Part shown: one piece after another, positions 35,578 through 42,539 of the stretch
Position numbering within the stretch: position 1 is the stretch's first letter
How the letters are laid out: every line of letters starts with the position of its first letter
Position numbers and translations under genes: made by a program
The notes under the pieces: generated by a model
The model's database searches: none
What the model was told of the DNA's origin: nothing
The model's input: only the letters and a program-made list of their open reading frames with translations
NCBI GenBank assembly: GCA_027618475.1
Contig: JAQCEJ010000004.1
Span: forward strand, 1 to 64,000
Direction of reading: 5' to 3'
Source of the DNA: Planctomycetota bacterium
GTDB taxonomy: Bacteria; Planctomycetota; Planctomycetia; Planctomycetales; Planctomycetaceae
Length of the DNA stretch: 64,000 nt

Positions 35578-36567
35578 ATGCGGTTCTCTGGTATCATCCC
35601 TTTTCTGCTCGTCATCACGGTTGCGTCTCCCGCGACGTGCGCCGATGCCATCAATGGACTGATCGCGGAATACTACAGCGACGCCTCTATCGGGAAACTG
35701 GTCACACGACAGCTCGACCCGAACATCGACTGGGTCTGGGATTACGGGCCGCCGCTTCCCGATATCCCGAAAGACGGGTTTTCTGTCCGCTGGACCGGTT
35801 GGATCAAAGCCCCCAAAGCGGGAAAGTAAAACCTGATTCTCGAAGGAGACGACGGCTCGCGACTGTTCATCGACGGCAAGCCCTTCATCGATGAATGGCG
35901 GGAAGGAGGCCGAACGTATCAGGCCATCGCCGATCTGACGGGGGAACCGCAAGAGATCGTGATCGAATACTTCGAAAAAGTACGCGGAGCACGACTGACG
36001 TTTTTCTGGCAACCTCTCGGCTTCCCTCATCCGTCGATTGTCCCCTCAGCCGTTCTGTTCCCCACCGAAAAACACGCGGCTGCGAAGGGAAAGCGAAAGC
36101 CGCTCCCCGACCACGGACTTGTCGCCGATTACTTCGACGTCGATTTCAAAAAGCCGATCGGTCGAAGTTTCATTCACCGCACCGAAACGCTCTGGGGAGA
36201 ATGGGCGGCGGAATCGTTTGCTCCCATCGATGCCGGAGTTCGCTACTCGGGTTATCTCGTGGCTCCGACGACCGGCCGTTACAAATTCGAAGCGTTCGCC
36301 GACGACGAGATGCGGGTCTGGATCAACGAGAATCCCGTACTGTTCGCGACACTCGCAACCAACAAAGGATTCGCCAGCGCCTATGTTGAACTCGAAGGGA
36401 AGACGGCCCATTCGCTACGGATGGAATACCTCGACGCCACGGCCAATGGACAGTTTTTGCTCCACTGGATCCCACCCGGATTTACCGATGCGATGAGCAT
36501 CCCTTGTAAAGCCTTATACCCGATAAAAAAAGCCGTCCCGAAAGAAATCAACTTCGCGGGAAAATAA
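35578..36567 (+). pseudogene. Secreted protein with two PA14-like domains, interrupted by an in-frame TAA
   Basis: 35578..35829 and 35959..36567 share one frame; across TAA at 35827-35829 the PA14 motif reads SGK*NLILEGDDGSRLFIDGKPFIDEW. Confidence 0.85.
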
Positions 36568-38111: not shown

Positions 38112-39149
38112 TTAGCCGGCACAGCTGTTGCTGGTATCGCAGCAGTTGCGGCGGTTCTGTCGGCAGCAGCGAACGCGACGTTCACGGCAGCAACGAACCT
38201 TACGGCATCGTTCTTTGCAGCACTTCGGCTTGCAGCAATCGTTGCTGGGAGCCGGATCACAGCACTTCTTGGACTTGCAGCAATTGGCCTTGGGAGCACA
38301 GCACTTGGCCTTGGGCTGGCAGCAGGGCTTCTTGTCGCAGCACTTGCGGGCCGGTTTGCAGCAGTGAGCTTTGGGAGCACAGCAGCTGGCCTTGGGCGCA
38401 CAGCAGGGCTTCTTGTCGCAGCACTTGCGGGCCGGTTTGCAGCAGTGAGCTTTAGGAGCACAGCAGCTGGCCTTAGGCTGGCAGCAGGGCTTCTTGTCGC
38501 AGCACTTGCGAGCCGGTTTGCAGCAGTGAGCTTTAGGAGCACAGCAGCTGGCCTTGGGCGCACAGCAGGCCGGTTTGTGGCAGCACTTGCGAGCAGGCTT
38601 GCAGCAGTTCGCTTTGGGCGCACAGCACTTGGCCTTGGGTTCGCAGCACGGCTTCTTGTCGCAGCACTTGCGAGCCGGCTTGCAGCAGTTCGCCTTGGGC
38701 TCACAGCATTTGGCCTTAGGTTCGCAACACGGCTTTTTGTCGCAGCACTTGCGAGCAGGCTTGCAGCAGTTCGCTTTGGGCGCACAGCAGCTGGCTTTCG
38801 GTTCGCAGCAATTGCGACGTGACCGGCGGTTGCCTCGTTCACGACAGCAAGTCGCATTGGGCTCACAGCAGCTGGCTTTCGGCGCACAGCAAGTGGCCTT
38901 CGGTTCGCAGCAGTTGCGACGTGACCGGCGGTTGCCTCGTTCACGGCAGCAGGTCGGCTTCGGTTCGCAGCAGGTGCGAGCCGGTTTGCAACAGGTTGGT
39001 TTCGGTTGACAACAAGTGACCGGCTGACAACAGTCGGCTGGTGCACCGCAGTCGTTATTGGATTTTAACATGCTCAACAGGCCGGCGTCAGCGGAGTTAG
39101 CGCTGATACAACAGACCAGGAGAGCTGCTGATACAGTCAAGAACCTCAT
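38112..39149 (-). CDS. Secreted double-cysteine repeat protein (Cys/Pro/Lys-rich)
   Basis: Signal peptide MRFLTVSAALLVCCISANSADA, then ~42 CC pairs in CCxPKAxCCxPKAxCCKPARKCCDKKP periodicity; RBS AGGAG 9 nt before ATG at 39149. Confidence 0.85.
   Translation of the reverse strand: MRFLTVSAALLVCCISANSADAGLLSMLKSNNDCGAPADCCQPVTCCQPKPTCCKPARTCCEPKPTCCRERGNRRSRRNCCEPKATCCAPKASCCEPNATCCRERGNRRSRRNCCEPKASCCAPKANCCKPARKCCDKKPCCEPKAKCCEPKANCCKPARKCCDKKPCCEPKAKCCAPKANCCKPARKCCHKPACCAPKASCCAPKAHCCKPARKCCDKKPCCQPKASCCAPKAHCCKPARKCCDKKPCCAPKASCCAPKAHCCKPARKCCDKKPCCQPKAKCCAPKANCCKSKKCCDPAPSNDCCKPKCCKERCRKVRCCRERRVRCCRQNRRNCCDTSNSCAG
38283..38768 (-). repeat. Six tandem 81-bp repeats inside the Cys-rich CDS
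   Basis: Residues 131-292 form six 27-aa units starting CCKPARKCC; 6 x 81 = 486 bp. Confidence 0.9.
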
Positions 39150-39687
39150 TCTGGGCATCTCCTAAATTACTTGTGATTCGTGAAGCACGTGAGGAACTCC
39201 AGGTGTGGTGCGTGTCGAATACCCGTAGCCGACGCGCAGGAGTCCGTTTCTCACGGTGACAAAGTGAGTAACACTGGTCGTTTTTTCGTCATTCGAAGAC
39301 AGGACAGTCTAGATAAACTGCGAAAGTTATCTATTGCTGATTTAAGTCGGTACAATACACCGAGGAAAACGATTGTGACGGCACTTTATACGGTTCGTTC
39401 GTTTAGTTTCCATGCCGATTTTTCCTAATTTAGCGGTCCGTTCTAAAGAATCGTTCATGCGTAACATAATGCTAATTCGTGATATAGAACGTGTGCCCGA
39501 AACGTGTCATCGACTGAGTCCCGAACAACCATCGGTGTGGTCACCCCAAGGCATCCCCACTCACCTCAAACCGATATGGATTTCGACGCTGGCAGGAGTT
39601 TACCGTCGGGTTATACTGCGGAACCGGCTATCAAAGGAAAGTAGCCAACCCCAAGTCGACCGATCACATGAATAAAGGATCACGGCG

Positions 39688-40671
39688 GTGCCGTATCTGG
39701 GTTCTCTTCTGGTAATAGCAGGAATTCTCCTCCAGCTCGTGGCCGGCTGGAAGATGAAACCTCGTCTAAAACAGACCAGTTTGACCGGGACGTGGTGGAT
39801 CTGGCTTTTCGCCTGGACGTGCTGGGGCGTTTCATGGTTGTGCACATCTCCGCTGACGACGCTTTCAACAGGAACCGGCGACCAGCTGTGGTATGCGACG
39901 ACCGTAATCACTCTGGCCGTCCCGATCGCCGTACTAGGAGCCAGACGGCCGGGTCATGTCGTCTGGGTCATGTTCGTGTTAATTCCTTTGATACTCGTCC
40001 TTTGCTGGCCAGCATGGTTAGATCTTCCACGGACATCGAAAGGGAGCCGACTTTCGCTTGAAGAGCCAACGGTGTTAGGGGTCGGACTGGTCGCGGTGAT
40101 GGGCTTCGGTAATTACGTCGGCACGCGTTGGACACTTGCCGTCCTGTTGGCACTTGCATCGATCGTTGGCGTGATGCTGCCGATCTCCATTTGGGGAAAC
40201 GCCTTACAATCGCACTCCCAGGCGTTTCGCGTCGCGGCGACGCTGGCGAATTCGCTTGCGGCGGCTTTTGTTCTCGTCCGACTTCATACCATGGAAAGGG
40301 GGAGTATGAACGGCAAGTCGCAGAGTCATCTCGCCACGAATCGATCGGACGTCTACAATCCGACGGCCTTGGACCAACGCATTGAAGGCTTCAATCGACT
40401 CTGGTTTACCTTTCGCGATTTGTATGGTTTGGTCTGGGCTCGGCGATATCAGGAGCGGATCAATCATATTGCCGATCGGGAGAAATGGCCGATGCGTCTC
40501 GAATGGTTTGGTTGGGTCTCCGTTCGGGATCACGCTTCTGCATCGACGCAACGTCTGACGGAACGACCCGAGGTTATCACTCCAAACACAATCACCGAGA
40601 TGGAACAACAACAGCGCTGGCTGCTCACGCGATTCGTTCAGCCAGAGTGGATCGATCGGCAGCTGTCGTAA
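39688..40671 (+). CDS. Hypothetical membrane protein
   Basis: 327 aa with several TM segments. Confidence 0.7.
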   Translation: MPYLGSLLVIAGILLQLVAGWKMKPRLKQTSLTGTWWIWLFAWTCWGVSWLCTSPLTTLSTGTGDQLWYATTVITLAVPIAVLGARRPGHVVWVMFVLIPLILVLCWPAWLDLPRTSKGSRLSLEEPTVLGVGLVAVMGFGNYVGTRWTLAVLLALASIVGVMLPISIWGNALQSHSQAFRVAATLANSLAAAFVLVRLHTMERGSMNGKSQSHLATNRSDVYNPTALDQRIEGFNRLWFTFRDLYGLVWARRYQERINHIADREKWPMRLEWFGWVSVRDHASASTQRLTERPEVITPNTITEMEQQQRWLLTRFVQPEWIDRQLS

Positions 40672-40716
40672 GAAACCGGCTTCGCGACAGCATGAAATGA
40701 ATATCAGGATGATATC

Positions 40717-42036
40717 ATGAATCGTTTTCCCGCCGCTCTCGATACTCAAGTCTCAGTGGCATCCTCGATCGATCCATCACTACTCCCCGATCGAATCGTC
40801 AGTCTGATGGGGCTGCTCGAAACGACCTGTCAGCTCGCGGCATTGTGGGATGAGGACGAAATCCTCAAGCGTGTGACCAACGATGTCTGTGCGGCACTCA
40901 ATTGTGAACGGGCGACGCTTTTTTTGTACGATGCCGCATCTCAAGAATTGTACACCCGGGTTGTGACACAACTCGAACTCCGTGAAATCCGCTTGCCGTT
41001 AAGTCAAGGGGTTTCGGGATGGGTGGCGCGCGAGCGGAAAATTGCCAATATCGCCACTCCGCACGACGATACCCGCTGGAATCCCGATGTCGATCAAAAA
41101 ACAGGTTTTCGTACACGCAACATCCTCACCGCGCCGGTCATCTCGGCACACGATGGCCGGCTCTGCGGCGTGCTGCAACTGCTGAATAAGCCGGGCGGAC
41201 CGTTTGATGTCTTCGACGAACAGATCATACAGGCCTATGCACTGCATGCCGCGAATGCGCTCGAACGAGCCGCCTTGTGGAAACAGGCACACAAGACACA
41301 GGAATTACAATTATCGCTGGAGATGGGTCGCAGAATTCAGCACGGCTTCTTGCCGCATGAATTACCGCACATTACCGACTATGAAATTGCCTCGTGGTGG
41401 GAGCCGGCCGAGGCGGTCGGAGGAGATTACTTCGACCTGATGTGGCTGAACGAAGGAAGGCTGCGCGGCGCAATCGCCGATGTCAGCGGACATGGCGTCG
41501 GGGCGAGTTTGATCATGGCCTCCGCCCGGGCCATGTGGCGTGTGCTGGCCAAAACCGATGTCTCTCCCGATCAAACGCTCAATTGGCTTGCCGATGCCAT
41601 AGCGGACGATCTCCAAGATGGGCGGTTCATCACGATGTTGATGGCGGAACTCGATGTTCGACGCCATCGTCTGACATACGCTAACGCCGGCCACGGTCCT
41701 GCCTTGATTTTCCAGGCAGCAGAACGAAAATGTGTGAGGCTGGTGTCGACGGGACTTCCGCTCGGCTTCCCCGGCGAAAAACCGTGTGAACCGGGCTCCG
41801 TTTACGATTTAGCCCCCGGCGATATGGTGCTGCTGGCGACCGATGGACTGGTCGAACGAAGAAACAGCGCCGGTGAATATTACGGAGCCGATCGATTGAC
41901 CGACGTTCTGCATCACGCTCATACTCGTTCGGCTTCGAAAATCGTCGAAGCGATCAAGCAGTCGCATGCCGACTTTAGCGGCGAACTTCCCGCCGATGAT
42001 GACATCACGCTCTTGATCCTCCGTCGGACGACGTAA
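40717..42036 (+). CDS. GAF domain + SpoIIE/RsbU-type PP2C phosphatase
   Basis: GAF region plus MGRRIQHGFLPHELPHITDYEIASWWEPAEAVGGDYFDLMWL...GAIADVSGHGVGASLIMASARAMWR. Confidence 0.92.
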   Translation: MNRFPAALDTQVSVASSIDPSLLPDRIVSLMGLLETTCQLAALWDEDEILKRVTNDVCAALNCERATLFLYDAASQELYTRVVTQLELREIRLPLSQGVSGWVARERKIANIATPHDDTRWNPDVDQKTGFRTRNILTAPVISAHDGRLCGVLQLLNKPGGPFDVFDEQIIQAYALHAANALERAALWKQAHKTQELQLSLEMGRRIQHGFLPHELPHITDYEIASWWEPAEAVGGDYFDLMWLNEGRLRGAIADVSGHGVGASLIMASARAMWRVLAKTDVSPDQTLNWLADAIADDLQDGRFITMLMAELDVRRHRLTYANAGHGPALIFQAAERKCVRLVSTGLPLGFPGEKPCEPGSVYDLAPGDMVLLATDGLVERRNSAGEYYGADRLTDVLHHAHTRSASKIVEAIKQSHADFSGELPADDDITLLILRRTT

Positions 42037-42137
42037 TGACGACTTCCCTGCAGGGTGAAGTCGAACCGGTTGTGATTGCGCGTGCGGAGGACTACAATAG
42101 GAGCGTAAACGACTCGCTTCTAAGGAGCCGGAGCGCG

Positions 42138-42539
42138 ATGCCGGAAATCATGATCATCGAGCGGCAATCTCGATGGACGCCTGAGCTGCAGAGGCAGGTT
42201 CAGGCGTTACCAAACGCGAAAGTGTTCGGTGCCGGGGAGGCATTTTCGGTGAACCCATGCAGAACATGGGCGGGGTTGCGTCCCGACCAGATCGCTGCCG
42301 GCACGGTTATCGTTGTGGACTTGAATTTTGGTGTGGCAGAGTGCCTGCATTTTCTGGGGAGAATGTTTCCGCATCTCGAAGATTGCAGGGTGGTCATCAT
42401 CGGTTCGCCGTCGACGCATTCCTTAGAATGGACATTCTACGAGATGGGAGTTACGGTCTATCTCGCCGAATGCCATCACGGCGAACAATTGATGAACATC
42501 TGCCGGCGACTCATGTCCGCATCGAAAAGAACATCCTGA
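42138..42539 (+). CDS. Hypothetical receiver-like protein
   Basis: MPEIMIIERQSRWTPELQRQV...; RBS AAGGAG upstream; longer ORF from 42036 overlaps upstream stop (TAATG). Confidence 0.6.
   Translation: MPEIMIIERQSRWTPELQRQVQALPNAKVFGAGEAFSVNPCRTWAGLRPDQIAAGTVIVVDLNFGVAECLHFLGRMFPHLEDCRVVIIGSPSTHSLEWTFYEMGVTVYLAECHHGEQLMNICRRLMSASKRTS

Follow-up and report, generated by a model that had tools for sequence, protein, structure and literature searches.

The question raised by the locus described here is what a planctomycete does with a secreted protein built of repeated cysteine pairs, and whether such a chain could belong to the cell envelope. Disagreement over what the SDS-resistant wall of planctomycetes is made of goes back to 1984. 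In the original prediction, made from the letters of the DNA, the gene was set against the background of a 'proteinaceous', cysteine-rich envelope; this background is dated in so far as peptidoglycan is present in planctomycetes (PMC4432640), and holds in so far as the cysteine-rich YTV proteins are present in wall preparations (PMC8567305). YTV proteins are restricted to Planctomycetia (PMC8567305, PMC10632474), and one YTV gene of Planctopirus limnophila is essential (PMC10632474). The gene, its locus and its relatives were studied here starting from a 64,000-nt stretch of contig JAQCEJ010000004.1 of a Planctomycetota bacterium (the window, whose numbering is used throughout).

The minus-strand ORF at 38112-39158 encodes a product of 348 amino acids with 89 cysteines and 43 CC pairs, of which 42 are in the mature chain and one lies inside the signal peptide. 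Cysteine accounts for 87 of the 323 mature residues (27%), beside 16% lysine and 12% proline; histidine and methionine are scarce, aromatic and hydrophobic residues almost absent, and with a net charge of +60 this copy is very basic. Translation probably begins at M4 (39149), 9 nt downstream of the listed start at 39158, which gives a gene of 345 codons at 38112-39149 (minus strand), because an AGGAG ribosome-binding site (39159-39163, minus strand) lies 9 nt 5′ of M4 as in the relatives described below, the first ATG of the listed ORF directly abuts AGGAG, and MRFLTVSAALLVCC aligns with the MKWxTLTAAL beginning of the family. A GGAG motif is found at the M4-type distance in nearly all of 30 relatives, and such strong ribosome-binding sites suggest that these genes may be well expressed. 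The predicted Sec signal peptide MRFLTVSAALLVCCISANSADA (39084-39149, minus strand) starts with MRFLTVSAALLVCC, ends in ADA and would be cleaved at this A-x-A site before GLL; it matches the MKWtTLTAAL signal of 29 relatives, which ends in ADA before GLF, and carries no lipobox.

Behind the signal peptide two copies of CCRERGNRRSRRNCCEPKA (38895-38951 and 38793-38849, minus strand) precede an array of six units, each of exactly 27 amino acids or 81 bp, with the pattern CCKPARKCCDKKPCCxPKAxCCAPKAx (38283-38768, minus strand; residues 131-292) and CC pairs spaced 7-7-7-6. Tandem Repeats Finder (TRF) delimits the 81-bp array at 38274-38810 with 6.6 copies and a score of 717. The chain ends in a basic CC-rich tail, CCKPKCCKERCRKVRCCRERRVRCC...CCDTSNSCAG (38115-38237, minus strand), that is similar to the basic module seen in relatives (for example CPKVRCCKVRCC). 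The original prediction had described the same architecture: its ORF position, about 42 CC pairs, about 27% cysteine in the mature chain, six 27-residue units with their spacing and location, duplicated second module, basic tail and secretion signal were all recovered. No Pfam family, NCBIfam model or PDB sequence was matched by the window protein, and an AlphaFold model from the single sequence (pLDDT 53, pTM 0.29) was too poor to seed a fold search.

The six units are 78-93% identical and differ mostly at silent sites (pooled pN 0.071 versus pS 0.482, pN/pS ~0.15), so their protein sequence is, as judged from codon differences, under strong purifying selection. This ratio, together with the reversed-pattern control given below, rejects a chance origin of the CC pattern. 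No exact repeat exceeds 53 bp and the units have diverged this far, so the array is old and resolvable with ordinary reads. This short limit on exact repeats makes collapse or inflation of the array in the assembly unlikely, and an array collapse was set aside; a fast recent expansion of the array between strains is unsupported, the units being too diverged.

The gene is divergently oriented to a conserved neighbour, fam5 (39688-40671, plus strand), whose place is conserved by synteny and which encodes 327 amino acids with several membrane-like segments by hydropathy; it is followed by fam6 (40717-42036, plus strand), a GAF plus SpoIIE (RsbU-type) phosphatase by Pfam with synteny at 7 loci. 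The stretch 39688-42539 (plus strand) may form a signalling cassette adjoining the CC gene; beside fam5 and fam6 it holds an ORF of 167 aa that has no Pfam match. On the other side, at 35578-36567 (plus strand), PA14 domains, the first of them truncated, are spread over two ORFs, as if a PA14 gene had been broken or had suffered a frameshift.

When 170 genomes of the host's taxonomic family were searched at the protein level, 48 gave matches. The neighbourhood was used to define the family because low complexity blurs protein-search scores: fam5 is encoded in 127/170 of these genomes, and for each genus the region upstream of it was read in one genome or two. In at least 26 genera of the family, a Schlesneria MAG among them, fam5 has as its divergent neighbour a secreted, Cys-rich protein whose signal peptide is of the type seen in the window protein, and the arrangement of CC gene, fam5 and phosphatase recurs in other genera. 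About a dozen genera have no CC gene at the fam5 locus, and in genus g53 the relative adjoins a different gene. The 30 relatives compared (26 from the fam5 locus, one from genus g46 and three from g53) keep the signal peptide, the cysteine content (15-34%) and a proline at CC+2, found after 69% of their 378 CC pairs, the CC-x-P hallmark. They vary in length (120-348 aa, the window copy being the longest), net charge (-31 to +60) and repeat type; most carry the basic module. The charge range indicates that charge is not the conserved function. Mature cysteine counts are even in 16/30 relatives, i.e. without an even bias, so no fixed set of internal disulfides is indicated. One positional relative (L294) has mostly single cysteines in CAKPSAPK repeats instead of CC pairs, and Cys density thus varies at one locus. 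Sequence comparison thereby shows a family of predicted secreted CC-x-P repeat proteins, with basic modules between the repeats, at a conserved locus; the window gene is a member of this undescribed family and not a lone oddity.

The homologues across Planctomycetes that the original prediction had called for were found across Planctomycetia. A strict CCxP heptad pattern gave many matches in 26/170 genomes of the family versus one match of the reversed control. Among 392 genomes across the phylum the pattern occurred in 14, all but one in class Planctomycetia; the matches within the class were from the window's own family and family f2, and in the sole match outside, the first spacer is interrupted by an in-frame stop. 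In a scan of species genomes, exported CC-rich ORFs among the matches listed (80 loci) were nearly all from Planctomycetota (Rhodopirellula baltica, Stieleria, Fuerstiella, Schlesneria and MAGs), with one exception in Caulobacteraceae, and most matches listed from outside planctomycetes were short or unconvincing as exported genes. By these scans CC-x-P heptads are essentially confined to class Planctomycetia.

A promoter-like element, ACGAAA-N13-14-TACTCA, lies at about -140 (39265-39289, minus strand). Its consensus, NCGAAA-N12-16-aCCCA, was present in 21/30 leaders at -170 to -110 versus a shuffled mean of 0.9, a descriptive figure as the pattern was defined after viewing the same leaders; it has a single strict match within the 64-kb window. 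The host genome also encodes a CC paralog with CCREPRERCC octad repeats (contig C40, L002:1399-1827, plus strand), and this gene has the element too, as TCGAAA...CCCCA at -94. YTV leaders have the element in 0/22 cases, which leaves co-regulation with YTV genes unsupported. Between the promoter-like element and the ribosome-binding site a hairpin formed by GTGAGaaacGGACTCC pairing with GGAGTTCCTCAC (39189-39254, minus strand) is possible and moderately supported by the alignment of leaders: 77.5% of cells were paired versus 34-53% when slid, with weak covariation; RNAalifold gave no consensus for the leader and Rfam no match.

The window protein and the YTV proteins are alike in being exported, Cys-rich, repetitive and confined to Planctomycetia. 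They differ in that no YTV domain (PF07639) is found in the window protein above the Pfam gathering score, in its near lack of aromatic or hydrophobic residues, and in the promoter-like element, which is missing from YTV genes. YTV is encoded in 164/170 genomes of the family; in the host it was matched at three loci, and the two ORFs read there hold 40 and 78 cysteines. CC-x-P heptads form the C-terminal ends of two YTV proteins (L020 and L022); such tails are rare, none being found at the other YTV loci inspected. Other planctomycete proteins with CC repeats were also encountered. One exported family (L005 and L029, assigned to HEAT_2 by Pfam, and L008 alike) has CCKPTIxRPC near the N terminus; it shares export and many CC pairs with the window protein, but has a different signal peptide and an extra HEAT domain. 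Genus g10 (possibly Gimesia) has small, acidic, exported proteins with CC repeats (L015, L018, L019, L021, L024 and L026), which carry the signal peptide MFTKVITATLLSVGLG; those compared (L015, L018 and L024) again resemble the window protein in export and CC pairs and differ in signal peptide and acidic spacing.

In the host genome, rated 100% complete, no DsbA, DsbB or VKOR was recognisable at E 0.01, and positive controls matched; VKOR is patchy in the family (37/101). The host nevertheless encodes very Cys-rich exported proteins. The cysteines of the window protein could be oxidised spontaneously in air or by an unknown enzyme, or the thiols could stay reduced and bind metal.

We lean, with little more than even confidence, towards a thiol polymer of low complexity that is exported and serves to build or stiffen the cell envelope. 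Sec export would deliver a chain without a stable fold, its proline-spaced cysteine pairs would become oxidised after export, and the oxidised pairs would tie the chain to its neighbours and to Cys-rich wall proteins, YTV among them, in an insoluble network. If only Cys density, proline and export were constrained, repeat number and charge would be free to drift, and the missing even bias (16/30) is more readily reconciled with links between chains than with fixed pairs inside one. An envelope role, in which the location, expression, oxidation and partners of the protein are all inferred, is plausible and stands on firmer ground than the original prediction could know. It is favoured by the signal peptide and locus conserved in at least 26 genera, the shared CC-x-P core, the purifying selection on the units, the CC-x-P ends of two YTV proteins, the Cys-rich YTV proteins of the host (up to 78 Cys) and the confinement of CC-x-P genes, like YTV, to Planctomycetia. 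Against it count the lack of recognisable DsbA, DsbB and VKOR in the host with VKOR patchy in the family, the rarity of CC-x-P tails on YTV, the absence of the promoter-like element from YTV genes (0/22), the gene missing at the locus in some genera and the mostly single cysteines of L294.

Because those oxidases were not recognisable, a secreted metal-binding or thiol-buffering polymer is the main rival and a real one, if unlikely. In the periplasm or at the surface, its reduced cysteine pairs would chelate copper, zinc and other soft metals or absorb oxidants, in keeping with the very high thiol density and the mature Cys count without even bias; CC pairs are also found in metallothioneins. 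The bacterial metallothioneins known to us are cytoplasmic, however, and the window protein is exported, has few His and Met residues and matches no metallothionein profile in Pfam or NCBIfam. Nor do its conserved neighbours include metal-resistance or transport genes, and the spread of the gene across many genera and the CC-x-P tails on wall proteins likewise count against it.

A surface, adhesion or appendage protein (holdfast, fibre or biofilm) would also depend on disulfides, but as extracellular material and not as a component of the wall. The window protein is secreted and repetitive, and its family varies in both length and charge, a common trait of surface proteins; Pfam and NCBIfam gave no known adhesion domain, and we consider such a role distinctly improbable. 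Still harder to sustain is a basic protein that binds polyanions, protamine-like or LPS-binding, with the charge of +60 as its key property: the window copy is very basic and most relatives have a basic module, but positional relatives reach -31, an exported protein would not meet DNA, and a protamine-like function was set aside on this range of charge. That a selfish tandem repeat creates a spurious ORF, as low complexity, 81-bp repeats and overlapping ORFs in other frames might suggest, is refuted at the sequence level by pN/pS of ~0.15 and by the signal peptide, ribosome-binding site and locus conserved across genera, and deserves almost no credence.

If the envelope role is accepted, a broader proposal can be made, tentatively and as one that may well fail: that the envelope of Planctomycetia consists partly of an unrecognised family of fast-drifting CC-x-P polymers, the bacterial equivalent of the high-sulfur proteins in hair, cross-linked without known Dsb or VKOR enzymes and having their own conserved promoter and leader element. 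A second family of Cys-rich exported proteins can now be named beside YTV, one in which locus and export are kept while sequence, length and charge drift. As the locus is conserved, the wall question becomes testable by deletion and proteomics. Should the chains be oxidised, the missing DsbA, DsbB and VKOR pose the question of how.

Among known systems, Chlamydia possesses DsbA and DsbB, unlike the host genome, in which the Pfam search found neither. We know of no CC-x-P repeats in chlamydial OmcA or OmcB. These two are Cys-rich envelope proteins of the PVC superphylum that form a disulfide-linked network (PMC6752827); the window protein shares the superphylum affiliation, and a network working in a like manner is proposed for it. 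The high-sulfur keratin-associated proteins are eukaryotic and intracellular in hair cells, and the likeness is claimed as one of design, not of homology. KAP1-2 contains 22-23% Cys and CCQP repeats and is cross-linked by disulfides (PMC8143586). With repeated CC-x-P and more than 20% Cys (27%), the window protein resembles it in the CC-x-P core (QTSCCQPT in KAP1-2), the variable repeat number and, as proposed, the cross-linking matrix (PMC8143586), and its network might work in the planctomycete envelope as keratin-associated proteins do in hair.
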